From a virus: 28,538 nucleotides of DNA. Of this stretch, positions 1 through 25,076 are shown piece by piece; the stretch's first letter is position 1, and each line of letters begins with the position of its first letter. Under the pieces are notes generated by a model. The model saw only the letters and a list, made by a program, of their open reading frames with translations. It was not told the origin of the DNA and made no database searches. The DNA is taken from IMG/VR virus record IMGVR_UViG_3300034685_000110, positions 1-28,538 of that record; one strand, given 5' to 3'. Position numbers and translations under genes: made by a program.

Positions 1-3000
1 GCTGGAGTTGAATTTCTCGAAGAGCAATTTGCTACTGCAGGTCATGCAATGCTTGGAGACGAACAAGCTGAATGGAAAGACCTTGTTGATCCTCGCAAAC
101 AGCTTATCACGGCGGGGGTGGTCGGTGTTATTCAGCTTCCATATGCAGCAATAAATGCAGGAGGGTATGCCGCAGCGAAACACAACGACAAAAAGCAAAA
201 GAGATCGATCAATCAGGCCTATACAAATAATCTTACAAACATACAATCAATTTTTGGAGATGAGGCCAAAGATGTGATATCGTTGGTAAATGGAATCATA
301 GATAACAACAGACAGGACACCGAAACGATATCAAAAGTAATAAGCGGAATCGCTACATCGAACGAATTTGACGAGAAACAATCAGACGCTTTAATAAAAT
401 ATTCATTAGCCTATTTAGCGAAAAACGGACTCGAAAGAGGAAAAAACGAAGAGATACAACAAGCACAAAAGGAAGCGCAAGAAACAATACAACAGACAAT
501 AAATCCGGAGACAAACAGTATCATCCTCGCAAAGATACCAGGCGTAGAGGAGCCTACATTTGTTCAAGGGAATATTGTTTTGCATGAAGACGGATCTATC
601 GACACACATAAATCGGGAGAAATTTATTACACTGACAGCAACGGAAAGAGGCAAGTCATCGATCCGAAGTTTGTAGATATCATTGAAAATGTTCCGGCTG
701 AACAGGCAATAGAAGAGGCTACGGCAGAGAAAACAGCTGAGGTGGTTAACAGGCAGGCAAACGATGAGGTCAGACAATATGAGCCTGGAGAAACTGTAAG
801 ATTTACATCAGGCGGGAATACATCATTAATAGGGAAAATTGCCAATGTTGATGAATCTGGGAATTATCAAGTTATGGTCGATGGCGTTCCTGCACCCGTA
901 AATGTTGAGCCGAGAATGATTATCGAAGAGGACAATCTTCGGGGCGTGGATAACGGCGTACAAGTGGACTATACCGATGAAAAAGGCAATATCGTAACCG
1001 GCACGGTGGATGATATGAGCCTGAGAAATAACGGTATTATCGTTATCGACGAGAAAGAAGTACCGTCGGTAAATGTCATCGGAGTACATCGGGAAGAGCA
1101 AGCTAAACGGGAAGAAGTTGACAGAATGTCAGAAATTATTCCCGAAAATGAGGGTATGCCAGCCGAACAGATAGAGCAAAATGTCACAGAAACGGGAAAA
1201 GAAGAAACAAAAGGACAAATAGCATTACCAGAGGAGACGGAACAATCATCCGGACAAGAGGCCGATGCAGAAAAGCAGGCATTCATGCAATCATTGCCGA
1301 TCGTCCGGGAAGGGAAAAATAAGGGTCAAATCGATCAATCACGGATGACGCCGGAGCAGAATATTAAATATTTTGAATACAAATACGGGAAAGACAGAGC
1401 GATTCAGGCTGCCAAAAAGATGTCTGATAATCTCGAAGCGAGGATCAAAAAAGAGCAGGCGAAGCTGGATGCCGATCCGTTCAACATTGCACAGAATGAT
1501 CTTGTAGAAAATCTGTTATCGCAGCAAAAAGTATATCAAGATTATACCAGCAATGCAACACCGGATGAAAAAGTGAAGATCGAGCCGGTAAAAGAATCCG
1601 TAACGACAAAATCGCCCGTAGATGTTCCCGAACAAGCTATAAGACCAAATAAAAAGCGTACCACCACCGTCAGCCGACAGGATGAACAACAAGAACAGGC
1701 GGAAATAGACGAAAACATGACTGATGTTGATCGTTTTCTGAGCGATATTGAAAAACAAAAAGAAGCTATCCGGCAAGAGGTTGAAAAAATGACGCCAAAA
1801 CAGAGGGAAGAATGGTGGGGAGAACCTCAGTCTTTGCGTGAATATATCATGCGAGAACTTATCAACGGGCAACGTATTCTATGGTCCGATACCCCTACAT
1901 CAAAAGGTTTTGGTAGTCATCTCGGGATGAAAGGAAAAGAAAAGGAAAGAAGAAAATATATAGGGCTTTTAGGTTCTGCGAAAACAAATGCTTTAACGCC
2001 CGAAGCTTTTGCGCACAAAGTATGGGAGGATGTTGTCTCAAAAGGCGGTGGAAACGAAATAGGTGTCCGCTTTCATAATGTGGATACTATGGATGTTTTG
2101 GATGAGGTGCTGGATGTGCTTTATACTCACTACTCGAAAGGTCAAATGATATCCGATATTAATGAAAGCAGGCTTGAACAGATTTTTAACGAATTAGACA
2201 TGCAGGCAGGAGTAGCCATGAGCGGCGCATGGGATATTGATCCAAACGAAAGATCGCAAAACGAAATACTTCGCGGACTAATGTCGGAGGCTGAAGTTGA
2301 CGAAGTATCAATGTATGAAATAGAAGAATATTATGTTAATCAGGTAACACAGGATGAATTTTACGAATATTTTTATAAATTTGTAGTAAATAATAATGAT
2401 TATGACGAGACAGGAGCAGTTGGAAGTAGTCAACAGGATGCTGGAGAAGGATCCGTCATTGCCGATGGAGAAGGACGAGATCAGGATAGCCCTGGCTATA
2501 ACGAAGGCGCAGAAGAAGCTGATCGAACTGATGAGAGAGAAGCAGAGACACCAGAAGAATCTGCAGGCCCAATCGGATATGGGCAAAATGATCAGGGAGG
2601 AAGAGGCCAAAACGCTGAGGGAGTTGCTGGAATCACACAAGAGATACCTTCAAAATCTCTTGAGCAACGAATAAAAGAGGCTGATGCTGAACTGAAGAAG
2701 AAACAGTTTGCCATCATTCAGGCCTCAAATCCGATGAAGGACGATATCCATACCGGGATCAGATCGGCAAATGAAATTCTAACGGCAGAGGAAGCGTTCT
2801 CGCCATTAATTGAAAGCGGAGATGAAGCTTCACCGGACTTCACGGCAGCCGATATGGCAGAGGCTTTAAAAAGTGGTCAGATCACAGTATATTCATCCTA
2901 CCCGATAACGAACGGAGTGTTTGTCACGCCATCCAGAATGATAGCCGAAGATTATGCCGGCGGAAAAAATGTGTATTCTGCACGTGTTCCGATTAATAGC

Positions 3001-6000
3001 GTGGCATGGATAGATGAATCGGAAGGACAAATGGCGAACATTGATGAAACGGTTAATACTGAAAGTTATACAAAACAGACAACTTCAAGTGAAAAATCAC
3101 AGCATGGTTTATTAAATGAAGAGAATAAACTGACTGTAAATCAGAAACAAAAAGAACAGGAAGAGCCTTTAAAGGTTAATCAAAAAGAAAACATTAAAAA
3201 ACAATCGGTTGAACAAAAAGAAAATAAGGACGAGCCAATCGATATTCTCAAGAAGGCACAAGAGACTGTTGAGGGGGAACAACAAAGGAGAAATATTCCG
3301 GTAATAACAGAAGAGGAATATCTATCTATGAATGGCGCACCATTTATGGCTGGGTCAGAGCCGGCACTACACATGAACATTCAGGACGATGCCAACAAGA
3401 AAAAAAATATAGGCCGCGTAATGGGTGACATGAAAGAGAATAATGAGCGAAGAGAAAAATTAAGGAAGGAATACGCCGAGAAAGTAGCGAAGGGAGAGAT
3501 ACGTCCTCCCTCCAGAACAGAATTACTCATAGCAACGGCACAAGGACATCCGGACAATGAATCGACACAAGCCGCCAGAAGATTACTCGAAAGGCAGGGA
3601 ATAAATTGGGAAAGACCAAGTGATAATAATTTAGTTGTTAACGAAAAAGGTGCAACTCTTACAAAAAATAAACCAAATGAAAAAAGAAAGCAAAAAGCAA
3701 TCAACCTCCAAATCAATTGGGACGAAGAAAACGGTGATGTATCCGCAAAAAGAGATGAAGCCTTCGGTGCTGACCCCGAAACAAGAGACGTACAACGGAA
3801 AGCGGGTTACGATCCGGCCATCGATAATAGAATAACCAACATGGAGCGGCTTCTGATAAACAGAGGCCACCTGGATTTTGTAGGAAATCCATTAACGGGA
3901 CCCGTTAAGATAACAGACGCCAACGACGTTGCTTTTCTATTTAAAAATCTTGAAAGGGCTCAATCGGAAAATGTGTTTGTTGTCCTTGCGAAAGATAATG
4001 GCGAATACCGTGTGTTATATCTAACTACCGGATCATCCACATCGAGCATCGTAGATACTAAATTAATAGCTCCTGCCGCAAAAGACTTCAGAGCAACAAA
4101 GATGTGGATGGTACACAACCATCCGTCCGGAAAGCTTGAGCCATCAGTTCAGGATATTTCAGTGCATAGAAACCTTGAACAGCTTGGCGAGGTACTTGGC
4201 ATCTCGGTTATGCCGTCAATTATTATCAACCTTGATTCGGGGAAATATGCCAAATTTTCAGAATGGTCGCGCACAACGATCGATACGCCAAGAGGTCCAG
4301 CTCAGGGTGAACCCGTCCGGGTTGATGTTTATTCATTTGACAGGCAAATGCTATATACCCCGTTCTCGGAAAAACAAAAAATAAAGAGTTCGGTTGACGT
4401 TGCCCGGTTATTAAGCCAACAAAAACGCGGAACGGTAGATAAGATTCATGCCCTGATTATTGACAGAGCGAATAATATCAACAGGTATGTACTTATCGAC
4501 GGCAACGTATCAACAGATGAGCTAAACAAAATACTACTCGAAGAAGTAGGGAGACACGGAGAGAACGTCATCCTTTCTACGAACGGCATTCAGTTGGACT
4601 TTAAGAGGATCAAAAAGGCATTAAACATCGTCGGAGCCGACCTCCTCGATGTGATAACGATAAAGCAAGATGACGATATCATCAATAATTATGAAAGTCT
4701 ATATGAATTAGGGCTACTTGCTGATGAACAAGCCGGATATGAGCCGCGTCAATCCGAAAACGTTCCGGGTGCTACTTACAATGGATTAATGTTCCATGTA
4801 GTTGATGAAGCCGGATATTATTCTACCGTTGAAGATGCGCTTGAGAAGATTAAACAGGAGAAAGGTACACCCGAACAATTCAAAGCCATGCTGCTGAAAA
4901 ACGGGGCTAAACAGGCCGAGTTGGACTGGATGGGATGGGATGAAACCTTCACCGGTAAATCGGTAACAAAAGCCGAGATACAGGACTGGATCAACCAAAA
5001 TAAGATCGAAATAAGTGAAGTAAGGAAAGAAAAAAATGAACCACTTACTGAGGGGGAAATTATACAAAGAGAACAAGATATTTATATCAATGCCGATATA
5101 GCTACGAGAGAAAAGTTTGGTATTGACGAACCGATCGAGCGATGGGATGAATATTATAAAGGTGATGCTGATGAAGATATATTAAACGAGATAGCTGCAA
5201 AAAACGGATATAGTGATTATAAGAAAATGTTCGATGCGATGGACTTATACTACGAGGATCTTGTTTATGAAGAACTTAGCGAGTTAGATAGATCGAGAGA
5301 AGATAGCACCAAATATTCCTATTACGTACTTCCTGGTGGCGAAAAATACAACGAATTGTTGTTGACAATGCCGCATAAAATATCAGAAAAGAGGAGAAGA
5401 TATGAAGAGTTAAGAGCAAAAGAGAAAATGACAGAATCAGAACGTCGTGAATTTTCTGATTTGGTAAACGATGATGTAGATATAAGCGATGAAAAATTCC
5501 GTTCACTCCATTTCGATGAACCTAATATCGTTGCACACATCCGTTTCGATGAAAGGACAGCAAACGGTGAGAGAATTTTATTCCTGGAAGAGATACAATC
5601 AGACTGGGCGCAGCAAGGAAAGAGACACGGGTTTAAAACAGGGAAGGATAAAGATGTATTGAGGGCTGAAAAAGCCTTAGAAGAATCGAATAAAAATCTT
5701 GAAAAAGCTATTAACAGAAGGCATGAATTAGGCCTACCCGTCGGGGCAGGATCTACGGAACAGAAGATGTTTGGTTCAGAAATATGGTTATTGGGGAATA
5801 ATAAAGAGTATATTCAATTAAACAGGGAGCTTGAAAAGGTAAGAAATAACAAGGATTATAATTCCATTCAGCAAAGAATGGAGGAAATAAAAAAGGAATA
5901 CGACAAGGCAAATTCGGATTATCAGAAAGCGCTTGATGATGTAGAATTGGACAGCAAGGTGTTAGAGAAAATGAAAGAGCTTTCAATCATTTCCGAAAGA

Positions 6001-9000
6001 TATAAGGTGCCAGATATGCCTTTCAAAAAAACCGACCAATGGATAACCCTTGCATTCCGCAGAATGATGCGATATGCAGCCGAGAACGGTTATGACCGAA
6101 TTGCATGGACAACGGGAGAGCAACAGGCCGATAGGTACAATCTGAGCAAGCAGGTGGATCGAATCGTTATAGACGAAGAGAACGGGCAGTATTCCATTAT
6201 GGCTGTTCCAAAAGGGGGGCAAGAGCTTGAGAATATAGCAACCGCGACAAAAGAAAACCTTTCCGACTATGTAGGGAAAGAAATTGCCTTAAAAGCGATC
6301 AACGAAGGGGGTGGCGATTTTCGTGGCGATGATTTGAAAGTTGGCGGCGAAGGAATGAGGGCGTTTTATGACCAAATCGTTCCGAGCGTCGTAAAAAAAA
6401 TCAGCAAACCTTTCGGCGTAGATATAGAGACCATCGAATTGCCGGAAACAGGAGCGCAACAGTCTATTCCTGTTACGGACGATATGCGCGGATATGCCGA
6501 AAACGGGATGCCGTTATTCAGTATAGCGCAGATGAGTGAAGATATCGACACCCTTCTTAACGCCGCAAAAACGCCACAGGAAAAGACGAAAATCGTTTCG
6601 GATATGGTCGATGAGCTGGAGAGCAGGTATAGGAAATCGGTTGACACAGTAGTGCTCCCAACAAAAAAAGACGTATTTGAATCCCTCCGGATGATGGGGG
6701 CCGACAGTGAATTGCTTAGCATGGCCGAGAAAACCAAAGCCAAGCTTAACGGAGTTTTCTTTAATGGTGTAATATACTTAAATTCGTCTTCGCTCGATAA
6801 GGCGAAAAATGTAGCAGAAGTGTGGGCGCATGAGAATTTTCATGCGTGGATATCGGACAAAAAAGAATTATTAGTACCTTTGATAAACAACCTCGACGAT
6901 AATTTTCTGAACGCAAATCTTCATGCGTACTATCATAAGCTCGATAAAGAGGAAAAAGTAAACGAATTGCTTGCATTTGCCGTCGGGAGAATTTTCACGG
7001 GTAGAGATATTGCAAAAATAAAGGAAGCAGATATCATTTTACCGGTAATCATAAAATATTTAGATTATGTCACAGAAGGAGAATTTAGTAAAAGTGGTGC
7101 TCGAATACGGAGCGGGAGAAGATCGGATGCGGATGCATTACGAAATAACCAGAGAGGCATACCGCAGGGCGAACGAATTAATCAGCCGGGAGAAGTCTCC
7201 TATCAGCCACAACAGGAGGACGGAACTGTTCTTTCAGGCTATGGAGGAGTATCCGGTGCCGGAGGAATAGCGGAATCGGCTTATGCGCCAATGCCGCAGC
7301 AAAAAGAAGGACAAAGCCTGGAGGATTATTCGCGCGAAGTAAGCGATTGGTATTTCAAACAGAGAGAGCTGCCTAACCAACCATTATTTAGCGTGTCGGA
7401 TGTCGCAGATCGTACAGGATCGAAAATGCCGGAAGATCTTCGCAAGGAGTATGATGTGAAATATGATCGGTTTTTCACCCGTTTCCGCGAGGCGTGGGAG
7501 GACACGTTTTTGCCGGTAAAAGACTTTCTCGATCTTTTAAGAAAAAACGGTGTCGAGATAGCAGAATACAACGATTTCTACAAGCAGGCAACACACCTGC
7601 AGGGGAAAAACGATTCGCAGCTGAAAATATTCAAAGACAGTTACCAACATCCGATCACACTTGCCGTCAGCGCACTCGTAAATAAAGGGTTTAAATACCG
7701 TGATATCGAAAACTATGTATTCGCAAAGCACGGTATCGAACGCAATGAATACATGCGCAATGCCGCCATAGAGGAATGGGAAAACAATCATCCGGAGGCT
7801 GAGGAAGACGAGAGAGCCGCATTCATCAAATCGCTTCCGAATGATTACGCGGGTATCACTGCACTGGAAGAAGAGTTGGGACAACCGGCAGAGATGTTCA
7901 TCGACAGCTTTGAGAATAAGGCCGGAGAAGAGGATATCAACAGATTGTGGGCGGCGATCAATAACGCAACCCACTGGACGCTGACCAAGCAGTACCAAAC
8001 CGGCATGATAAACAAAGAGGTTTATGACGATCTGATGAATCGATACCGATATTACGTTCCACTTCGGGGACACGACAAGGAAACGGCTGAGGACAGATGG
8101 GACTATACACCCGATATGGGAACATTCTTTACTGCTCCGTTGGTGAGAGCCAAAGGGCGCAGGTCGAGAGCAGAAAGCCCGTTCGCCTTTATTGAGCAGA
8201 TGGCTCACTCAGCCATAGTGCAAGGCAACAAAAACACCCTTAAACAATCTATCCTAAGGCTTGCCCAGAAGGAAAACGGAGGCTTGATGTCTGCCACCAA
8301 AACGTGGAAGGTTAACGTAGGAACAAAAGAAAAACCGATATGGGAGCAACAATCTGCACCGTACAGCGAAGACCTTGATACCTATCTTCAAAACCAGCAA
8401 CTTTTTGAGGAGAGGATGCAGCAGCTCAAAAAGGAGGGTATGGCCTATCAGGGGAGAGCAAGGCTGGATATTGGCGATCTGTTCATTAAACCAAAACAGG
8501 CAGAACAGCATGAAATACGAGTTTACCAGAACGGCATAAGTTATACGGTTTATATCAATGCAAACCCGGCTATTGCAAAAGCAATCAACGGAGCAAACCG
8601 GAAAGATATATCCAATAACTTGGGACTCTTTTCAACCATAACCCGGAACATGGCGGCCAACTTCACTACCAGAAATCCTCTTTTTGTCATGACGAACTTC
8701 TCGCGAGATTACATTTATTCCACGACGATGTTACTTGCGAAAGAAACGCCCGAGTTTATGCTTGACTTCCAGCGAAATCTTCCGGCAGCTGCCAACGCCT
8801 TAAGAAGGTATGAGAGAGGAAATGTCGATCTGAATAAAAAATCCGATCAATATCTTTACGAATATATGATCAATGGAGGTAAAACAGGATTCTCGCATAT
8901 CTTCGAGCTTGACAGGGTGGCAAAATCGCTGGAAAGAGAAGCACAAAAAGGAGGAAAGAAAAACTTTGCGGATCATGCCAGAGCGATCATAGACGTTATC

Positions 9001-10311
9001 GACATGTTTAACGAAGTGGCAGAAAATACGACCAGGTTATCCGTTTATATTACCTCTCGCGAGCATGGCAAAAGCATTATTGACTCGATTAATGATGCAA
9101 AGAACATCACGGTGAACTTCAACCAAAAAGGAGCAGGATCCAGCGTAGGAAAAAACAGTTTCGAACAAGTCATTTTATCGGCAGCTGGATGGGTAAGGCC
9201 ACTTTATTTATTCTCAAATGCCGCCATACAAGCGCTTAGCAATATCGTGAAAGTAACCAATAAGCATCCGGTGAAGATGGCCGCCATCCTCTCATCGTAT
9301 GCGCTTATCGGGTTTATATCACCCCTGTTGGCCGCGATGATTGGAGGCGATGATGGAGAAGATAGTTATATGAAGCTATCTGATTGGGAAAGACAAAATA
9401 ACTGGTGTGTGTTACTCCCGAACGGATCTTTCCTTAAAATACCGCTTCCTCAAGAACTAAGGATATTCAGCCGCATGGGAGACGATATCTATCAGGCATA
9501 TACCGGAAAGAAAGACATCTTACAGGTATTGATGGATATCGCGTTTTCTATTTCGGACCTTCTTCCGATGAATCCACTGGGTGCAGCCGGAACAAGCTGG
9601 GCTGAATTATCACCTGACTTTGCGCGTCCTATCGTGCAGATAGTAGGGACAAATACGAATTTTATGGGGTCGCGTATATACAACGAATGGGCAAACAAAA
9701 ATATGCCCGGATACCTGAAAGCAAGGACAAACAAGAAAGGCGAATATTATGCGCCCAATTTCATGGTTGACTGGTTTATGATATTGGATCATCTCACCGG
9801 TGGTGACGGCGTGAAAAAAGGAGTGATAAGCCTCAATCCGGATATAACAAATCACCTGCTTAGAGGATATTTTGGAGGACTTTATACATTAGCGGAGCAG
9901 GGAATCGGCATAGCAAGCGAAGCATACAATTTTACAAAAACAGGTGAGTTGGATATTAAAGTCCGGGAGACGCCGCTTCGCGTATTCTATGTAGATAAAA
10001 ACGATCTTCAGCTGCAATCCAGCGGAATCTCAAGCAGATATTACGATATATACGATAAGGTCATAGAATCACGGCGTAGAGCCAAAGCATATACGGAGAA
10101 GGTTCAAAAAGGCGAGATGGGAATCGACGAATACTCGCGTGTGATGAGTGAACTAAACATGCCTAAGATCAATGCCATGTATGATCGGATAAAAGAGATA
10201 AAACGAATTGAAAGAGAAATGAAAGAGATGAATCCGCAGCAACAGAAACAGGCAGAAGAAATGATTTTTGATCTAAGAAAAGAAGTTGTAGAGTTGAACA
10301 GCAATCAGTAA
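1..10311 (+). CDS. Giant phage polyvalent (internal virion) protein, 5' partial
   Basis: The reading frame is open from base 1, so the start lies upstream; the first ATG in the window is at 49. At least 3436 residues are encoded. Numbering from the ATG at 49, recognisable parts are: about 945-1000, a region like phage ADP-ribosyltransferase-type segments (NGVFVTPSRMIAEDYAGG); about 1270-1430, a RadC-like JAB/MPN domain with HNHPSG at 1356-1361 followed by S..D metal ligands; about 1600-2035, a conserved polyvalent-protein region (EEIQSDW, AWTTGEQQADRY); HENFH at 2261, an HExxH zincin site; from about 2865, an LPD38-like C-terminal part (TRNPLFVMTNFSRD) with a hydrophobic segment at about 3078-3100. 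Linkers are charged and Q/E-rich. Proteins of this kind are thought to be injected with the DNA and to act against host functions. Its position just upstream of the portal gene and its size fit an ejected virion protein. Domain calls are from motif recognition only; the overall class is fairly sure, individual enzymatic activities are not. Confidence 0.85.
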   Translation, partial: AGVEFLEEQFATAGHAMLGDEQAEWKDLVDPRKQLITAGVVGVIQLPYAAINAGGYAAAKHNDKKQKRSINQAYTNNLTNIQSIFGDEAKDVISLVNGIIDNNRQDTETISKVISGIATSNEFDEKQSDALIKYSLAYLAKNGLERGKNEEIQQAQKEAQETIQQTINPETNSIILAKIPGVEEPTFVQGNIVLHEDGSIDTHKSGEIYYTDSNGKRQVIDPKFVDIIENVPAEQAIEEATAEKTAEVVNRQANDEVRQYEPGETVRFTSGGNTSLIGKIANVDESGNYQVMVDGVPAPVNVEPRMIIEEDNLRGVDNGVQVDYTDEKGNIVTGTVDDMSLRNNGIIVIDEKEVPSVNVIGVHREEQAKREEVDRMSEIIPENEGMPAEQIEQNVTETGKEETKGQIALPEETEQSSGQEADAEKQAFMQSLPIVREGKNKGQIDQSRMTPEQNIKYFEYKYGKDRAIQAAKKMSDNLEARIKKEQAKLDADPFNIAQNDLVENLLSQQKVYQDYTSNATPDEKVKIEPVKESVTTKSPVDVPEQAIRPNKKRTTTVSRQDEQQEQAEIDENMTDVDRFLSDIEKQKEAIRQEVEKMTPKQREEWWGEPQSLREYIMRELINGQRILWSDTPTSKGFGSHLGMKGKEKERRKYIGLLGSAKTNALTPEAFAHKVWEDVVSKGGGNEIGVRFHNVDTMDVLDEVLDVLYTHYSKGQMISDINESRLEQIFNELDMQAGVAMSGAWDIDPNERSQNEILRGLMSEAEVDEVSMYEIEEYYVNQVTQDEFYEYFYKFVVNNNDYDETGAVGSSQQDAGEGSVIADGEGRDQDSPGYNEGAEEADRTDEREAETPEESAGPIGYGQNDQGGRGQNAEGVAGITQEIPSKSLEQRIKEADAELKKKQFAIIQASNPMKDDIHTGIRSANEILTAEEAFSPLIESGDEASPDFTAADMAEALKSGQITVYSSYPITNGVFVTPSRMIAEDYAGGKNVYSARVPINSVAWIDESEGQMANIDETVNTESYTKQTTSSEKSQHGLLNEENKLTVNQKQKEQEEPLKVNQKENIKKQSVEQKENKDEPIDILKKAQETVEGEQQRRNIPVITEEEYLSMNGAPFMAGSEPALHMNIQDDANKKKNIGRVMGDMKENNERREKLRKEYAEKVAKGEIRPPSRTELLIATAQGHPDNESTQAARRLLERQGINWERPSDNNLVVNEKGATLTKNKPNEKRKQKAINLQINWDEENGDVSAKRDEAFGADPETRDVQRKAGYDPAIDNRITNMERLLINRGHLDFVGNPLTGPVKITDANDVAFLFKNLERAQSENVFVVLAKDNGEYRVLYLTTGSSTSSIVDTKLIAPAAKDFRATKMWMVHNHPSGKLEPSVQDISVHRNLEQLGEVLGISVMPSIIINLDSGKYAKFSEWSRTTIDTPRGPAQGEPVRVDVYSFDRQMLYTPFSEKQKIKSSVDVARLLSQQKRGTVDKIHALIIDRANNINRYVLIDGNVSTDELNKILLEEVGRHGENVILSTNGIQLDFKRIKKALNIVGADLLDVITIKQDDDIINNYESLYELGLLADEQAGYEPRQSENVPGATYNGLMFHVVDEAGYYSTVEDALEKIKQEKGTPEQFKAMLLKNGAKQAELDWMGWDETFTGKSVTKAEIQDWINQNKIEISEVRKEKNEPLTEGEIIQREQDIYINADIATREKFGIDEPIERWDEYYKGDADEDILNEIAAKNGYSDYKKMFDAMDLYYEDLVYEELSELDRSREDSTKYSYYVLPGGEKYNELLLTMPHKISEKRRRYEELRAKEKMTESERREFSDLVNDDVDISDEKFRSLHFDEPNIVAHIRFDERTANGERILFLEEIQSDWAQQGKRHGFKTGKDKDVLRAEKALEESNKNLEKAINRRHELGLPVGAGSTEQKMFGSEIWLLGNNKEYIQLNRELEKVRNNKDYNSIQQRMEEIKKEYDKANSDYQKALDDVELDSKVLEKMKELSIISERYKVPDMPFKKTDQWITLAFRRMMRYAAENGYDRIAWTTGEQQADRYNLSKQVDRIVIDEENGQYSIMAVPKGGQELENIATATKENLSDYVGKEIALKAINEGGGDFRGDDLKVGGEGMRAFYDQIVPSVVKKISKPFGVDIETIELPETGAQQSIPVTDDMRGYAENGMPLFSIAQMSEDIDTLLNAAKTPQEKTKIVSDMVDELESRYRKSVDTVVLPTKKDVFESLRMMGADSELLSMAEKTKAKLNGVFFNGVIYLNSSSLDKAKNVAEVWAHENFHAWISDKKELLVPLINNLDDNFLNANLHAYYHKLDKEEKVNELLAFAVGRIFTGRDIAKIKEADIILPVIIKYLDYVTEGEFSKSGARIRSGRRSDADALRNNQRGIPQGERINQPGEVSYQPQQEDGTVLSGYGGVSGAGGIAESAYAPMPQQKEGQSLEDYSREVSDWYFKQRELPNQPLFSVSDVADRTGSKMPEDLRKEYDVKYDRFFTRFREAWEDTFLPVKDFLDLLRKNGVEIAEYNDFYKQATHLQGKNDSQLKIFKDSYQHPITLAVSALVNKGFKYRDIENYVFAKHGIERNEYMRNAAIEEWENNHPEAEEDERAAFIKSLPNDYAGITALEEELGQPAEMFIDSFENKAGEEDINRLWAAINNATHWTLTKQYQTGMINKEVYDDLMNRYRYYVPLRGHDKETAEDRWDYTPDMGTFFTAPLVRAKGRRSRAESPFAFIEQMAHSAIVQGNKNTLKQSILRLAQKENGGLMSATKTWKVNVGTKEKPIWEQQSAPYSEDLDTYLQNQQLFEERMQQLKKEGMAYQGRARLDIGDLFIKPKQAEQHEIRVYQNGISYTVYINANPAIAKAINGANRKDISNNLGLFSTITRNMAANFTTRNPLFVMTNFSRDYIYSTTMLLAKETPEFMLDFQRNLPAAANALRRYERGNVDLNKKSDQYLYEYMINGGKTGFSHIFELDRVAKSLEREAQKGGKKNFADHARAIIDVIDMFNEVAENTTRLSVYITSREHGKSIIDSINDAKNITVNFNQKGAGSSVGKNSFEQVILSAAGWVRPLYLFSNAAIQALSNIVKVTNKHPVKMAAILSSYALIGFISPLLAAMIGGDDGEDSYMKLSDWERQNNWCVLLPNGSFLKIPLPQELRIFSRMGDDIYQAYTGKKDILQVLMDIAFSISDLLPMNPLGAAGTSWAELSPDFARPIVQIVGTNTNFMGSRIYNEWANKNMPGYLKARTNKKGEYYAPNFMVDWFMILDHLTGGDGVKKGVISLNPDITNHLLRGYFGGLYTLAEQGIGIASEAYNFTKTGELDIKVRETPLRVFYVDKNDLQLQSSGISSRYYDIYDKVIESRRRAKAYTEKVQKGEMGIDEYSRVMSELNMPKINAMYDRIKEIKRIEREMKEMNPQQQKQAEEMIFDLRKEVVELNSNQ
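2396..2674 (+). CDS. Overprinted 92-aa helical ORF inside the giant gene
   Basis: This ORF lies in the +2 frame, fully inside the giant polyvalent gene. It encodes a highly charged, probably all-helical protein beginning MIMTRQEQLEVVNRMLEKDP and rich in K/E/L/R heptad-like patterns. Over the same bases the main frame reads as a D/E/G/Q/A-rich, low-complexity linker, which is the usual appearance of the non-ancestral frame in overprinted DNA. It could be a real nested gene, or the remnant of a small gene that was captured out of frame to form the linker. No ribosome binding site is obvious, but Bacteroidales genes often lack one. Function unknown. Confidence 0.35.
   Translation: MIMTRQEQLEVVNRMLEKDPSLPMEKDEIRIALAITKAQKKLIELMREKQRHQKNLQAQSDMGKMIREEEAKTLRELLESHKRYLQNLLSNE
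7067..7270 (+). CDS. Overprinted 67-aa ORF inside the giant gene
   Basis: A second +2-frame ORF nested in the giant gene. It encodes an ordered-looking acidic/basic helical protein (MSQKENLVKVVLEYGAGEDR at the start, EEYPVPEE at the end). The main frame here is a G/S/Q/R-rich linker, located just after the zincin region and before the next folded section. Purine-rich AGAAGGAG occurs just after, not before, the ATG, so it does not support this start. It may be a nested gene or an out-of-frame captured gene. Function unknown. Confidence 0.35.
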   Translation: MSQKENLVKVVLEYGAGEDRMRMHYEITREAYRRANELISREKSPISHNRRTELFFQAMEEYPVPEE

Positions 10312-12853: not shown

Positions 12854-13369
12854 TTAGTTTTTTGATGGATGGAGATGTCTGCGAAGATGTCTCCATCTTT
12901 TTACCATGTAGAACATTGCGCCGAAGGTGTAGGAAGTTATATGCACCATAAACGAACTGCCGGCATTGAAAAAGGACGCCGTAAGCATCACGATGATAGC
13001 AAAGAGGAATAACCGTTTCTGTTTGCCGGTTGCGTTATTGTATATAACGATCACCGTCTCCATGCCGAACATTGCATAGATCATGCCGGACGATCCAACG
13101 GCGGGGATATCCGTAACGGAAGAAAAGGAAGCCAGCACTGCAACAATATATATCACAAGAAATAGAACAACTGGCCGGATGAATCGTTCCATCACCCGGA
13201 ACGCGGAAATAAAAACGAGGGTATTCAATGCAAGGTGGATGATACTTCCGTGCTGAAAGGAGAACGTAAGGTGAGTATAGAAGGGAGATACGGAAGTAAA
13301 TCCCAGCTCACGCCCATAGATGAAGTACACCGCCACGAAAAGAGCTGCGACGATATATTTAAGAACCAT
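12854..13369 (-). CDS. Rhomboid-family intramembrane serine protease
   Basis: 171 residues, about six transmembrane segments, the compact bacterial rhomboid core without a cytosolic domain. Rhomboids cut membrane-spanning substrates inside the bilayer. Visible hallmarks: H40-GSIIH45-LALN49, matching the HxxxxHxxxN region of TM2; G92-S-S94-G with following MIYAMFG, the GxSGxxxAxxG catalytic serine motif; and H143-ITSYTFG150 in the last helix, the catalytic histidine. The dyad S94/H143 appears intact, so it is probably active. It is the last gene of a minus-strand trio and its start overlaps the end of the 47-aa ORF. Its final residues (RWRHLRRHLHPSKN) are encoded on the complement of the opposing terminator hairpin. 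In a phage it could act in lysogenic conversion or superinfection exclusion; that role is inference. Confidence 0.88.
   Translation of the reverse strand: MVLKYIVAALFVAVYFIYGRELGFTSVSPFYTHLTFSFQHGSIIHLALNTLVFISAFRVMERFIRPVVLFLVIYIVAVLASFSSVTDIPAVGSSGMIYAMFGMETVIVIYNNATGKQKRLFLFAIIVMLTASFFNAGSSFMVHITSYTFGAMFYMVKRWRHLRRHLHPSKN
12868..12902 (+). terminator. Strong rho-independent terminator of the portal operon
   Basis: A 13-bp stem (GATGGAGATGTCT pairing with AGATGTCTCCATC, two G-T wobbles) closes a GCGA tetraloop of the stable GNRA class and is followed by five T. It ends the + strand transcript from the portal and connector genes. On the minus strand there is no T-tract after the stem, so it should be one-directional. 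It overlaps the 3' coding end of the opposing rhomboid gene. Confidence 0.85.
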
Positions 13370-20555: not shown

Positions 20556-21902
20556 ATGAATAAGGAATTAAGACAAGCGCAGTTAGTCACCGACTTTACG
20601 GATCAGGATCAGATCTTAGGTGTTTTCGGAAATACAGTCGGCCGCACAACCATGAAAGACCTGAAAGAAGGTCTTATCAAAAATAACGACCTTTATCTGA
20701 ACCAGGTAGCGTTTTACATTGACGTAAACGAACCGGCATCAACTCCGCTCAAAGTGAACGTAGGTGGTAACAGGGAGATGTTCAATCTATGGGTAAGAGA
20801 GTGGAAAGCAGGAGTAATGGATCAAACGGGAAACTTCGCCGAGCTGTCAAGAGAGGATAACCGGTATTTCGCTGATGGATCACCGGCCGTTGACCCTGGG
20901 ACAGGAAGTGCGGTAGCAGCTTTGGCTAACGCCAACTTCATGGGTAAGATTCCCAGAACGGGATGCTATATCCAGACGGTTGAGATAGCCGGCAAAACGA
21001 TACAACGGTTATGGTTGTCACTCATGGATCTCCCGGGGTGGACAGAGCCCGCTCAGTATGTTGGCATGTTCAAGGGATGGGTTGATGGAAGCGGACGGCT
21101 ACGATCTGTTCCCAATGTCGTACCAACCCGATCGAAAACAGTAAAACAATTTTGGGATAGCGCACAATTATACGGTAAAAGCTACGGGCTGGCAGGAGTG
21201 CATTTCAGAAACATGCTGTTATGGTATATGATGGCCGCTTATGGACAAAGAGGTAGCCAGGAGTGTGAGCTAGCTGATGCTACGAAGGTATGGGGTCCAG
21301 GTCTTGACGGTACGGGAAGTGCGGTAGCAACAAACCAATATACTATCGTTACCGGTCAAACACTCAGTCTCGGTACAGCGGACGGGAAATCATCGGTGCT
21401 CGATTCGGCAGGGGCTACCTGCAACTCCGTAAAGGTTCTCTCCTTTGAAAACCCGTGGGGACAGTTTTGGGAATTTGACGGACACATGTGTTCGATCAAT
21501 AACGATGTAGTGGTATGGAGAGACAATTTTATGCCGGCCACATCGGCCCCCACTATGGCAGATTTTGAAAAGATCAAAACTTTCGTCGCACATCGCCATA
21601 GTGCAGCCATTTCAAATACAGCAACCACTGCACATAAAATGAATTTAATAGCGATGGGAGAGCAGGCTGCGTTTATGTTTCCATATGCAGTGCAAGCCGG
21701 CGTATCATATAACGACTACTTCTATTACAATATTGCAGGTCAGGTGTGGCTCTGGGGCGGCGCCGCTGAGCACGGTGCGAAGTGCGGTCTCGCCTGCTCG
21801 TACTCGGCCAACGCCTGGACGCGCTCGGCCTCGCACCTCGGAGCCCGCCTTGCTTATTTTGGGGATGTGAATGAAATCAGCGGAGGCGATATGCTCGCGT
21901 AA
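20556..21902 (+). CDS. DGR variable protein: C-type-lectin-like receptor-binding fibre
   Basis: 448 residues. The N-terminus (QLVTDFTDQDQILGVFGNTV) is a typical phage-fibre attachment motif. The C-terminal half is a C-type lectin-like fold of the DGR target class: FENPWGQFWEFDGHMCSINN and VVVWRDNFMP precede the variable tip. Residues 397-434 are encoded by VR (21746-21855) and contain WLWGGAAEHGAKCGLACS and the closing LGAR motif. Only 14 residues follow. Diversified residues at the tip are A, H, K, Y, A, R, A, H, L, L and A where the template specifies N, N, N, N, N, N, N, N, I, H and T. The protein most likely sits on the tail and binds a host-surface receptor. It is followed by the DGR hairpin, TR and RT. 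Confidence 0.9.
   Translation: MNKELRQAQLVTDFTDQDQILGVFGNTVGRTTMKDLKEGLIKNNDLYLNQVAFYIDVNEPASTPLKVNVGGNREMFNLWVREWKAGVMDQTGNFAELSREDNRYFADGSPAVDPGTGSAVAALANANFMGKIPRTGCYIQTVEIAGKTIQRLWLSLMDLPGWTEPAQYVGMFKGWVDGSGRLRSVPNVVPTRSKTVKQFWDSAQLYGKSYGLAGVHFRNMLLWYMMAAYGQRGSQECELADATKVWGPGLDGTGSAVATNQYTIVTGQTLSLGTADGKSSVLDSAGATCNSVKVLSFENPWGQFWEFDGHMCSINNDVVVWRDNFMPATSAPTMADFEKIKTFVAHRHSAAISNTATTAHKMNLIAMGEQAAFMFPYAVQAGVSYNDYFYYNIAGQVWLWGGAAEHGAKCGLACSYSANAWTRSASHLGARLAYFGDVNEISGGDMLA
21746..21855 (+). repeat. DGR variable repeat (VR)
   Basis: The 110 bp align without gaps to TR at a constant offset of 245 bp. They differ at 15 positions; 14 correspond to A in TR and one (21782, G for T) does not. The first 104 bp contain 12 of the A-site changes plus the T-to-G difference. 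The GC-rich 3' end CGGAGCCCGCC is identical in both copies and is the likely mutagenic-homing initiation region. Confidence 0.93.
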
Positions 21903-21913
21903 ATTAGGGGGTG

Positions 21914-21935
21914 CAGGGGGAAGCGTCCCCCTGCT
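21914..21935 (+). promoter_or_regulatory. GC-rich hairpin/cruciform downstream of VR
   Basis: A perfect 8-bp inverted repeat, GCAGGGGG and CCCCCTGC, encloses a 6-nt loop AAGCGT, 12 bp after the variable-protein stop and 58 bp after VR. DGRs such as that of Bordetella phage BPP-1 have an 8-bp GC-rich hairpin at the same relative place, which stimulates retrohoming. It may also slow transcription, but no T-tract follows. Confidence 0.7.
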
Positions 21936-21990
21936 GGATTGATACAGATAAAAGTCCACCTGATCCGGGTGGCAGGCATATGATTGGAAA

Positions 21991-22100
21991 GTGGCTCTGG
22001 GGCGGCAACGCTGAGAACGGTGCGAATTGCGGTCTCGCCTGCTCGAACTCGAACAACGCCTGGACGAACTCGAACTCGAACATCGGAGCCCGCCATACTT
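21991..22100 (+). repeat. DGR template repeat (TR)
   Basis: Non-mutated copy of VR located between the variable gene and the RT gene. It contains 24 adenines, mostly in AAC or AAT codons when read in the VR frame, where the product would be WLWGGNAENGANCGLACS followed by an N/S-rich stretch. AAY codons let adenine mutagenesis reach many amino acids while avoiding stop codons, a hallmark of DGR templates. Transcribed as RNA, it is copied by the RT with errors at A and the cDNA replaces VR. Confidence 0.93.
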
Positions 22101-22273
22101 CAAATAATTATCAGGATGTGATTAGTGCGTCATACGAAAGCATCCGACCAGTCAAAGCCTCATCGGTGTAGCCGTATGCTACATGCAGAAGAAACAAAAT
22201 AACCTTGCGTGAATAGCCTCAGGGCATCACCATTACGGTGTTAGTAACTTAGATGTTGAACGCTCCGTAGAGA
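22101..22273 (+). ncRNA. TR-downstream spacer of the DGR template RNA
   Basis: The 173 nt between TR and the RT start carry no convincing gene. They contain a perfect 6-bp hairpin TGTAGC-CGTAT-GCTACA (22167-22183) and a smaller CACC-ATTAC-GGTG stem. In characterised DGRs the equivalent spacer folds, binds the RT and primes cDNA synthesis. An active role here is inferred from position and structure. Confidence 0.6.
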
Positions 22274-23683
22274 ATGAAGCAAGCAACGAAAATAATGAAA
22301 AGAGAAGGATACACGTACAGAAAGACGTATAATTGGGATAATTTGACGAAAGCCGAAGAGTCGGCTACCAAAGGCAAGCTAAAACGACATTATGTAAAAT
22401 CGCATCTGCATAACAGGATTAGGAATCTGTGTGAGATACAGAGCGGACTTATTGATAAAACAATACGTACGGATGAATACAAGCATAAGGATATGACAAG
22501 CGTACAAGGAAAGGTGCGTAAAATATCAAAACTTAACTTTCATCCGAACCACATTTACCATCAATCGTTGGTCACCGCCGGCGAAAAGAGGGTAGAGAAA
22601 AATCTCATCTATGATACCTATGCCAGCCGGAAAGGAAAAGGACAGATAGCTGGAGCATTAAGAGTGCAACGATGGTTGAGAGAATACCCTGAGGAAACGG
22701 TATGGTATGGACAGGGAGATATCCGTAAGTTTTATCAAAGTATCCCGCACGACCTGTTAAGACGCACATTAGAATCGATCTACAAGGATCAGAGCTATAT
22801 CGATGCGATGATGGAGCCGATAAACAGATTTGGGGATATAGGAATCCCATTGGGTATAAGGCCAAGCCAGATAATAGGAAATCTGATCCTTTCGTCTTTT
22901 GATCATTGGGCGAAAGAGGAAATGGGAATGAAGTTCTACATCCGATATATGGATGATTATGTAGTTTTAGGAAAGACAAAGGGAGAGGTTAAAAGATTCA
23001 TGAAGAAGGCAAATGAAAGGCTGGCCGAAATGGGGTTTAAAACCCATGTTCCGAAAATCCACAGAGTGTCGTTTGGATTAAGTTATCTCGGATTCATGAT
23101 TTACCCGGGTGGAGATTTATACTGGAGGAAGAGAAACAAATCGGCCTGGCTAAAAAGAAGAAGCCGCGCAACCAATAAGAAGCGATTAAAAGAGATTGAC
23201 GCAGCAGCTTGGGGCATGTTAAAACATGGGAATAAGCACTGCAAAAGATTATATTATAAGATGACAGGAGTAGATATAAAGCGATTAGGAATAAAAGCGA
23301 ACAACAGTGTAACAGGAAGGGACGGCAAGAAATTTTTCGATGTTCCGAGGATAGGTGCGTCAGTGGTGATAAATGATGTTATCGACATACTGGAATGGGA
23401 GAAAGACATTCGTACATCGCAAGGATCCGGGAGATGGGTCTTATTGATCAGGTTCCATGAAAAGGAATACCGATTGATCATAAACTCGATAAGAATTAAA
23501 AACTTTATCGAGACGCTGGAAGAGCATAACGTAACATCTTTCAGGACCGTAATGACAGACAGGTCAGGCAACAAGCATTATGATTTTGACTATGACCGAA
23601 CATCAATATTGAGCATATCCGGTAGCGACGTTTACGAGAAAGATGGAGAAATAATTCACAAAGATAAAGAACAACAATTATGA
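22274..23683 (+). CDS. DGR reverse transcriptase with extra C-terminal domain
   Basis: 469 residues. RT motifs in order: ASRKGKGQIAGALRVQRWLR near residues 117-136 (N-terminal finger block), GDIRKFYQSI with catalytic D149, LGIRPSQ at 193-199 (DGR-type GxxxSQ in place of the QGxxxSP of retroviral and intron enzymes), and Y225-M-D-D228 with catalytic aspartates. A basic thumb region follows (about 275-330). Residues about 330-469 form an additional domain (KKFFDVPRIGASVVINDVID, then GSGRWVLLIRFHEKEYRLII) not part of a minimal DGR RT of roughly 300-400 residues. The product copies TR RNA with errors at adenine. Its stop overlaps the next start as ATGA. No avd gene is recognisable next to it. Confidence 0.93.
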   Translation: MKQATKIMKREGYTYRKTYNWDNLTKAEESATKGKLKRHYVKSHLHNRIRNLCEIQSGLIDKTIRTDEYKHKDMTSVQGKVRKISKLNFHPNHIYHQSLVTAGEKRVEKNLIYDTYASRKGKGQIAGALRVQRWLREYPEETVWYGQGDIRKFYQSIPHDLLRRTLESIYKDQSYIDAMMEPINRFGDIGIPLGIRPSQIIGNLILSSFDHWAKEEMGMKFYIRYMDDYVVLGKTKGEVKRFMKKANERLAEMGFKTHVPKIHRVSFGLSYLGFMIYPGGDLYWRKRNKSAWLKRRSRATNKKRLKEIDAAAWGMLKHGNKHCKRLYYKMTGVDIKRLGIKANNSVTGRDGKKFFDVPRIGASVVINDVIDILEWEKDIRTSQGSGRWVLLIRFHEKEYRLIINSIRIKNFIETLEEHNVTSFRTVMTDRSGNKHYDFDYDRTSILSISGSDVYEKDGEIIHKDKEQQL

Positions 23684-24066
23684 AAAAGTATGAACAATTC
23701 AAGACAAGCGAGTATGATCAAATACCCTCGCTGTACGATACAGTAGGAAAGGTTATTCGCTTTGGGTTCACAGAACGCATCAAGCAGGATGAGGACGGTG
23801 AGGACAAGGTTGTGTATATGGGTTACAATATACCTCTCACCGGTCATATCGACTATGGACACATAAAAAGTCAGATCATAGAGTATGTTTACCCTCCCAA
23901 AGAAGAATTTGCCATCCTAAACAATGCCGTTGCCGCCTTACTGAAGGAGAGAGCAGGCATTACGGATCCGTCCATCGAAGAAGATATAACTGCCTTCATG
24001 GAGTTTGAAGAATGGAGAGAGATAGCTGCAGATGCAGCACATCAACTGATCGATATGAAAAAGTAA
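23680..24066 (+). CDS. Small acidic protein coupled to the RT, unrecognised
   Basis: 128 residues, translationally coupled to the RT gene. The N-terminal part is beta-like (KVIRFGFTERIKQDEDGEDK), the C-terminal part helical (EEFAILNNAVAALLKERAGI and an acidic EEDITAFMEFEEWREIAADA). Its size matches Avd, the DGR accessory protein, but Avd is basic and a four-helix bundle, and this protein is acidic with a mixed fold. It is more likely a tail-fibre-associated protein, perhaps an assembly factor for the neighbouring fibre. Function unknown. Confidence 0.65.
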   Translation: MKKYEQFKTSEYDQIPSLYDTVGKVIRFGFTERIKQDEDGEDKVVYMGYNIPLTGHIDYGHIKSQIIEYVYPPKEEFAILNNAVAALLKERAGITDPSIEEDITAFMEFEEWREIAADAAHQLIDMKK

Positions 24067-24077
24067 ACATTGCCGTT

Positions 24078-25076
24078 ATGCAAATACGTGGAGCAGGAGT
24101 TGTGCGCTGGATGGCCTCGGACGGTCATTCTCCCTACATTGGGGAGAATGGGAACTGGTGGCAGTGGAATGACGCCGTAAACGATTACGTTGATACAGGG
24201 GTTAGCGCAAAAGGTGTTCCCGGCATGCCGGGCCAAATACCGGTACAAAAAGAATGGAAAGCCGGCGATACGCACAGAAACGATACCAACATCGTTGATT
24301 ACATCTATGTTCGTGCTCCTCTCCCCGATAACAGGAAGTGGTATAAACTGAAAAACGATTACGTCGTTCGTGAAGTACCAAGCGATGAAACATACCCGTC
24401 CGAATCGACCTTATCGACTTATTATGATGAAATACCATGGCTAAAAGAATTGGCCGCAAAGGTTCTGATTGGGGAAGAGGCCAACCTTGCTAACCTTATT
24501 TTCAAAGACGATAAACTGATTTCGTTAAGAGGTACTGTAAACGGTGTTGCTGCGGATTACTCTGGTCAGGCAGACTTTGTGCCGAATATTATCATTGACG
24601 GAAAGACAGGAGAAATTACTGCCGCAGGCGGAAAAGTAAAATTTAAATTTGACGGAAGTGGATTTATCGCTGATGGAAATATACAATGGAATAGTAGTGG
24701 TAATATTGAATTTCTCGGAGGATTTAAATCGCCGTTTGTGGATGTTTCAAATGCAACAATAACCGAATTTTGGGAGGATGAGATAACAAGTTGGGCAAAT
24801 AATTTTTTTGAGAATAGCATTTTTTCTTCGCTTCCTATTAGAATTATACCTTGTAATACCCTATTGAATGGTCAAGTATTTAGGATACATGCGCTTAAAA
24901 AAGGTATTGTTATGCAGCCTGAAGAATATAACGGATTTTATGAGAATGGTATATTGCTAAATGAAATTCAATTAAATAAAGGTGATGCTATAGAGATGGT
25001 GTGTATCTGCTATGGCGGCGTTTTTCATAGTTGGGATATTATTAGGAGATATAAATGCAGACCATACGATCAATGA
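24078..25076 (+). CDS. Second tail fibre protein
   Basis: 332 residues from the ATG at 24078; the longer in-frame start at 24012 would overlap the previous gene by 55 bp and adds an unlikely Cys/Arg-rich leader. The N-terminal region (SPYIGENGNWWQWNDAVNDY) and a short collagen-like GVPGMPGQIP are typical of Bacteroidales phage fibres. The middle is beta-helical in look (IIIDGKTGEITAAGGKVKFK). The C-terminal 120 residues, probably the receptor-contacting tip, are encoded by markedly AT-rich DNA. It is not a DGR target, since it carries no TR-like repeat. Its stop overlaps the ATG of a 17-codon ORF. Confidence 0.75.
   Translation: MQIRGAGVVRWMASDGHSPYIGENGNWWQWNDAVNDYVDTGVSAKGVPGMPGQIPVQKEWKAGDTHRNDTNIVDYIYVRAPLPDNRKWYKLKNDYVVREVPSDETYPSESTLSTYYDEIPWLKELAAKVLIGEEANLANLIFKDDKLISLRGTVNGVAADYSGQADFVPNIIIDGKTGEITAAGGKVKFKFDGSGFIADGNIQWNSSGNIEFLGGFKSPFVDVSNATITEFWEDEITSWANNFFENSIFSSLPIRIIPCNTLLNGQVFRIHALKKGIVMQPEEYNGFYENGILLNEIQLNKGDAIEMVCICYGGVFHSWDIIRRYKCRPYDQ

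Follow-up and report, generated by a model that had tools for sequence, protein, structure and literature searches.

The question raised by positions 20556–23683 of the viral record IMGVR_UViG_3300034685_000110 is whether they hold a complete diversity-generating retroelement (DGR) and, if so, whether that element has worked recently. The window, by which we mean the whole stretch of 28,538 nucleotides analyzed here (positions 1 to 28,538 of the record), carries on its plus strand a target gene (20556–21902, 448 aa), a template repeat (TR, 21991–22100) and a gene for a DGR reverse transcriptase (RT, 22274–23683, a single open reading frame (ORF) of 469 aa), and both ORFs are complete. The 3′ end of the target gene holds the variable repeat (VR, 21746–21855), as a reading made from the DNA letters alone (hereafter the sequence-only reading) had proposed. 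We conclude, with a probability of about 0.96, that the DGR is functional, or was so until very recently, and that it belongs to a tailed phage with relatives infecting Bacteroides and Phocaeicola.

Comparison of the two repeats within the window gave the first evidence. An ungapped scan aligned TR with VR over 110 bp at an offset of 245 bp (score 72.5, against 8.5 for the next best offset) with 15 differences, 14 of which fall at TR adenines, the remaining one being T>G (hypergeometric P 1.4e-10). TR holds 24 adenines, many of them within AAC codons, and 10 are unchanged in VR. Our recount thus reproduced the figures of the sequence-only reading, with one adjustment: 11 codons do differ, as it stated, but only 10 of them through adenines, since the codon at 21780 (AAT>AAG) owes its change to the sole non-adenine difference. 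The YMDD and GxxxSQ motifs that it reported are present in the RT ORF as YMDD and IPLGIRPSQ.

We then turned to natural alleles. A scan of viral contigs with the RT protein returned five loci: L002 and L003, whose RT proteins are 100% identical to that of the window with all motifs intact, and three distant ones. Identity with the window across the common stretch is 98.6% for L002 and 96.9% for L003; divergence along the contig flanks is patchy, for example at 20.0–21.1 kb and 24.5–25.5 kb. Between the window and L002, the first 104 bp of VR carry 16 substitutions (16/104), and 16/16 lie at TR adenines (P 2.8e-14), whereas outside VR 91 of 8250 compared positions differ and TR does not differ at all. 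The nearest substitutions outside VR are at 21032 and 24497, so that 21033–24496, about 3.4 kb, aligns without gaps and is otherwise identical. Between the window and L003, VR carries 13 substitutions, 12 of them at adenines of the window TR, compared with 353 of 12153 positions elsewhere. VR therefore varies between close relatives while TR is near-constant, differing by a single codon in L003, and 11 codons are variable among the three alleles.

The 13th difference from L003 (21830, C>G) is itself informative, because it is part of a codon change from AAC to TGG. L003 has TGG instead of AAC in its TR (22073–22075) and likewise in its VR (21828–21830). Adenine changes by themselves cannot turn an AAC template into TGG; on the simplest reading, the TR of L003 mutated first and was then copied into VR, which would make this codon a natural counterpart of the tagged-template transfer used in the laboratory, as described in the available text of PMC3240598. 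The sequence-only reading had proposed that population variants should sit only at TR-adenine positions, and the natural alleles bear this out, the single exception lying in the TR-marked codon. As judged from the allele alignments, VR has demonstrably diversified in recent time by adenine-only variation over a near-constant template, a TR-specific codon has moved into VR, and mutagenic retrohoming in this phage is well supported.

The same comparisons bear on two other explanations. One is that the DGR is dead, its VR having been diversified once and then frozen. Such elements have precedents: the available part of PMC3521204 describes DGRs with broken RTs that still show adenine-only TR/VR pairs, and among the loci surveyed here L102 and L104 (3785–4989) have the first and third parts of RT while the middle part with YxDD is gone there and was not found elsewhere in these contigs (a weak test), L102 nevertheless retaining an adenine-only TR/VR pair. 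Three phages with identical RT proteins, nearly identical flanks and three different VRs contradict a frozen VR, as does a TR mutation already present in the VR of L003, and we regard this explanation as very improbable. The other is that the VR differences arose by ordinary homologous recombination with phages bearing other VRs, a process for which the patchily divergent flanks would offer some grounds. The differences, however, end sharply at VR and are adenine-specific relative to TR, a separate piece of DNA, and recombination of this kind has hardly any likelihood as their source.

Mutagenic retrohoming would here proceed as follows. TR would be transcribed, and RT would copy the TR RNA with misincorporation at template adenines. 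Priming of the cDNA would probably take place at a GC-rich initiation of mutagenic homing (IMH) site at the 3′ end of VR, and the cDNA would then replace VR, altering about 11 codons in a tail protein of C-type-lectin fold. We infer that the changed residues lie at the protein surface and that the benefit is receptor range, as we infer the host, the transcription of TR and the site of priming. The active tropism switching that the sequence-only reading took to be implied would be a possible consequence of the recent diversification seen here.

The end of the transferred tract can be placed more closely. The three alleles agree in carrying A>T at 21850 and A>G at 21852, and the VR end CTTGC recurs in relatives of the type of LoVEphage (MW660583), where TR reads CATAC or CAAAC. 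These two fixed differences thus lie beyond the transferred tract and should not be read as hypermutation, which leaves 12 of the 14 adenine changes in the window allele attributable to retrohoming and means that the diversified portion of VR stops before about 21849. The GC-rich segment immediately upstream of them (21838–21849, plus strand, TCGGAGCCCGCC) is common to TR and VR and is the putative IMH.

Several observations weigh against a working DGR of the familiar kind. The alleles of this phage number three, and the element is known here from its DNA alone. The GC-rich hairpin that the sequence-only reading placed after VR is present as a perfect inverted repeat at 21913–21934 (no strand assigned; 9-bp stem, 4-nt loop, z −3.83 when folded as DNA), but its loop is AGCG rather than GRNA and it lies 57 bp from VR, compared with 4 to 34 bp in the examples given in the available text of PMC3240598. 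A perfect stem of at least 7 bp with a 4-nt loop past VR occurs in 6 of 53 TR/VR pairs, 3 of these being the window clade; the hairpin is not conserved among relatives, and its role as a DGR cruciform is uncertain. No Avd-like gene was recognized in the window by a PHROG search or by tblastn with one phage Avd, the latter giving a weak antisense match within the RT gene (E 0.001) and another at E 1.5. An ORF of 128 aa past RT (net charge −10) matched no Pfam or PHROG family. An accessory protein, Avd or other, is common in DGRs but not universal. Finally, position 21782 is G in 3/3 VRs and T in 3/3 TRs (22027), although the adenine sites on either side differ between alleles; simple whole-tract copying would put T there, and the fixed G is unexplained by it. 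A further proposed part, a structured spacer between TR and RT, was not supported: 22100–22280 folded as RNA with z −0.81, and 41/200 shuffles folded equally well or better.

We weighed several accounts of the G at 21782. A second TR carrying AAG was rejected as its source: a scan of the 54.5-kb L003 contig, which may be a fragment, turned up no further TR or VR when up to 3 mismatches to the pattern were allowed, and no other full copy of the target gene. T>G change arising separately in every allele would be improbable, given a rate of about 0.8% per T. The account that we tentatively prefer, and which we put a little short of an even chance, is patchy or repaired transfer combined with selection for lysine: AAG (Lys) is unreachable from the TR codon AAT through adenine mutagenesis, so that selection would have favored transfers in which heteroduplex repair or tract switching left the old G in place. 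Consistent with this, AAG is unchanged in 3/3 alleles, both of its adenines being unmutated, whereas LoVEphage has T at the corresponding place in TR and VRs alike and its VRs vary that codon. Patchy transfer would nevertheless have to leave a segment of no more than 28 bases (21773–21800) as it was while replacing the sequence to its left and right, and TR could have simply evolved to AAG.

The same position led to a count of non-adenine changes in related elements. Of 56 TR/VR pairs detected, 53 were counted and three dropped because the best repeat was a long diverged copy (L083, L085 and L086, where the target gene is probably present twice, giving direct repeats of 1105, 476 and 183 bp); 3′ changes past the IMH were also left out (T>G in LoVEphage VRs, G>A in L103). 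Within the tract, changed cells numbered 739/1287 for A, 13/1325 for T, 4/1592 for G and 2/1420 for C. With the three window-clade rows taken as one event, there were 17 independent non-adenine changes: 11 T>G, 4 G>T and 2 C>T. Such differences, mostly T>G, occur in L005, L016, L025, L028, L033, L042, L084, L088 and L111 as well as at window 21782. T>G affects about 0.8% of T cells, compared with 57% of A cells changed, and its excess by a rough binomial calculation is 6e-11 under a transition-biased null and 8e-8 under a uniform null, figures to be read in the light of pairs that are mutually related and a repeat search that penalizes non-A mismatches. An origin of the T>G differences as G>T in TR was rejected: for 9/11 events relatives hold T in both TR and VR, so that the VR side changed. 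The other two, both in L042, are not polarizable. L027 and L029 have G in both copies at the position affected in L016.

We regard this T>G excess among related TR/VR pairs as a lead. It may point to a second, weak mutagenic channel of DGR RTs, in which template U would occasionally be copied as G (C in the cDNA) and so yield T>G in VR, and which in the window would have made a lysine codon kept since; we consider this proposal possible but less likely than not. No such channel and no template-U figure was found in the literature searched, which was available as partial texts. The accessible text of PMC12875486 gives, for BPP-1 RT acting in E. coli, a misincorporation of 30.65% at adenines, with programmed non-adenine changes transferred at 100%, and that of PMC3521204 mentions ‘sloppy’ elements with several non-A changes.

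We further examined relatives of the LoVEphage type. When genome contigs were searched with the window protein by itself, none of 7 pattern matches was a relative; a search based on an alignment yielded 6 loci. In six records of the LoVEphage group the TR region is 80% identical to that of the window over 106 bp; LoVEphage itself shares about 29% (target) and about 34% (RT) amino acid identity with the window, and gene order around the DGR is similar. Over 2050 bp around RT, the other five records carry 2–18 substitutions relative to L012, and no two of the six VRs are alike. Five records without an indel share one identical TR and have five VRs; in all 10 pairwise comparisons the differences lie at TR adenines, except for one position in L016. 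The VR of L013 (~6136–6275) has a 3-bp deletion relative to TR.

The RT gene of these relatives differs in layout. In L012 (6374–7926) and other LoVEphage-type loci it lies in three overlapping frames (+1, +1), and among 27 loci examined an RT match was found in 25, with three frames in 18/25. The sequence-only reading had taken an RT with a broken active site in related genomes as a sign against an active element. The RT is 100% identical in L002 and L003, and the 18 loci whose RT is split among frames carry diversified VRs as well. A wider survey of 94 loci with all three RT parts (duplicates included) found 51 with three ORFs, 41 with one and 2 mixed. A quick, midpoint-rooted RT tree of 65 distinct rows separates the 31 three-ORF RTs from the remainder by a branch with a Shimodaira–Hasegawa-like approximate likelihood ratio test (SH-aLRT) value of 97, and their nearest one-ORF relatives are L108 and the window together with L025, L108 and L025 being long branches. 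The RT of the window, L002 and L003 is thus related to the three-frame group and stands outside its branch.

The three ORFs match successive parts of PHROG 1423 in LoVEphage, and substitutions favor the third position in each ORF's own frame (726/1134, 343/509 and 804/1168 in 12 pairwise comparisons, some of which share a locus). The shift is +1, +1 for each of the 29 distinct middle ORFs; an ATG precedes a conserved [PT]IG in 27 and a TTG does so in 2, and the third ORF has an ATG before LGY in 28/29. A three-frame RT in Quimbyvirus was described in PMC8008677, where two programmed frameshifts were proposed. Separately started RT chains would be an alternative, for which the start codons are not decisive, since the ATG of ORF2 overlaps a conserved stretch of ORF1. 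The available text of PMC3521204 also reports DGR RTs broken by frameshift, one in a Bacteroides genome. To the published three-frame RT the present analysis adds its spread over 31 distinct RTs of a single branch and the conservation of the start codons.

The RT of the window matches Pfam RVT_1 (8.6e-18) and phrog_1423 reverse transcriptase (5.4e-65). Its nearest solved structure by sequence is 8ub7 (3.1e-18), which we take to be the BPP-1 DGR RT. A structural model built from 24 aligned rows, some only pieces (mean predicted local distance difference test score (pLDDT) 86.9, predicted template modeling score (pTM) 0.67), superposes on 8ub7_A with Z 33.2 and a root-mean-square deviation (rmsd) of 2.6 over 320 residues, spanning RT residues 7–335. 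Residues ~345–469 form a C-terminal extension outside this match, common to Hankyphage-type RTs; at least one in five of the matched structures covers just residues 5–360. In L062 (~1489–1806, minus strand) and L063 (1489–1863) the extension stands as a separate small ORF near RT, that of L062 being phrog_19665, and this ORF is possibly an accessory protein.

The target protein belongs to the tail family phrog_5302 (7.8e-22) and matched no Pfam family and no PDB entry by sequence. Its AlphaFold model (33 rows, mean pLDDT 75.9, pTM 0.83, several loops below 50) has as its best solved fold the Thermus aquaticus variable protein TaqVP (5vf4; Z 21.6, rmsd 3.5, 265 residues, 17% identity), the sole Foldseek match passing E 0.001. 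It also resembles the Treponema denticola variable protein TvpA (Z 13.2) and Mtd (Z ~11), and other matches of the same fold include formylglycine-generating enzymes. The lectin fold of the lectin-like fiber tip named in the sequence-only reading is therefore upheld, while a fiber tip is a probable reading drawn from the PHROG tail family and on LoVEphage homologues, which are annotated as tail or tail-collar-fiber proteins; PMC8525569, in its available part, places RT next to the LoVEphage tail collar fiber gene. The diversified target is probably a receptor-binding tail protein. Since its function is read from fold, gene neighborhood and the annotation of relatives, it could be a structural protein with another role, but the gene sits downstream of other structural genes and is homologous to the LoVEphage ‘tail collar fiber protein’, and we consider that alternative unlikely.

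Elsewhere in the window, the structural genes include a P22-like portal and an SU10-type capsid protein (Pfam), and a Rhomboid-family membrane protein (12854–13369, minus strand) lies on the opposite strand within the structural gene cluster. A giant ORF of at least 3436 aa (1–10311, its 5′ end cut) carries a RadC-like domain and the polyvalent-protein domain LPD38. The window contains no tRNA and no Rfam match at gathering score.

DGRs were found in 13/68 inducible gut prophage species (PMC12629997) and signs of recent activity in 50–75% of DGRs (PMC8144416), according to the available text of both, so that an active phage DGR is ordinary. This locus adds an ordinary member to a known system, though one documented unusually well. 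Its alleles, on identical or nearly identical backgrounds and with a marked template reappearing in the target, provide a clean natural test of mutagenic retrohoming; its one-gene RT, close to the three-frame group, is a reference for how the three-frame enzyme is made; and it poses a measurable question, the non-adenine error spectrum of DGR RTs.

Taken together, the element shares with that of Bordetella phage BPP-1 the adenine-specific transfer from TR to VR, a CLec-fold target with C-terminal VR and the RT fold, and differs from it in the C-terminal extension of RT, in the loop and greater distance of the hairpin, and in gene order, which is target-TR-RT without a recognized avd here and Mtd, Avd, TR, bRT in BPP-1. 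Hankyphage (Bacteroides phage p00, BK010646) likewise carries a DGR in a Bacteroides phage, with the same RT extension, although the two RTs are just ~26–27% identical; its DGR has a C-type lectin target and a small Avd-like ORF near RT, as the available text of PMC6199706 describes. TaqVP, the closest solved fold to the target, comes from outside the phage group of the window. LoVEphage is like the window in gene order, in its related target and RT, and in one TR serving several VRs. The RT of LoVEphage and Quimbyvirus, whose DGRs we take as one kind from the description in PMC8008677, lies in three overlapping frames, whereas that of the window is one ORF; Quimbyvirus, moreover, has a second, remote VR, and none was found in the L003 contig, possibly a fragment.

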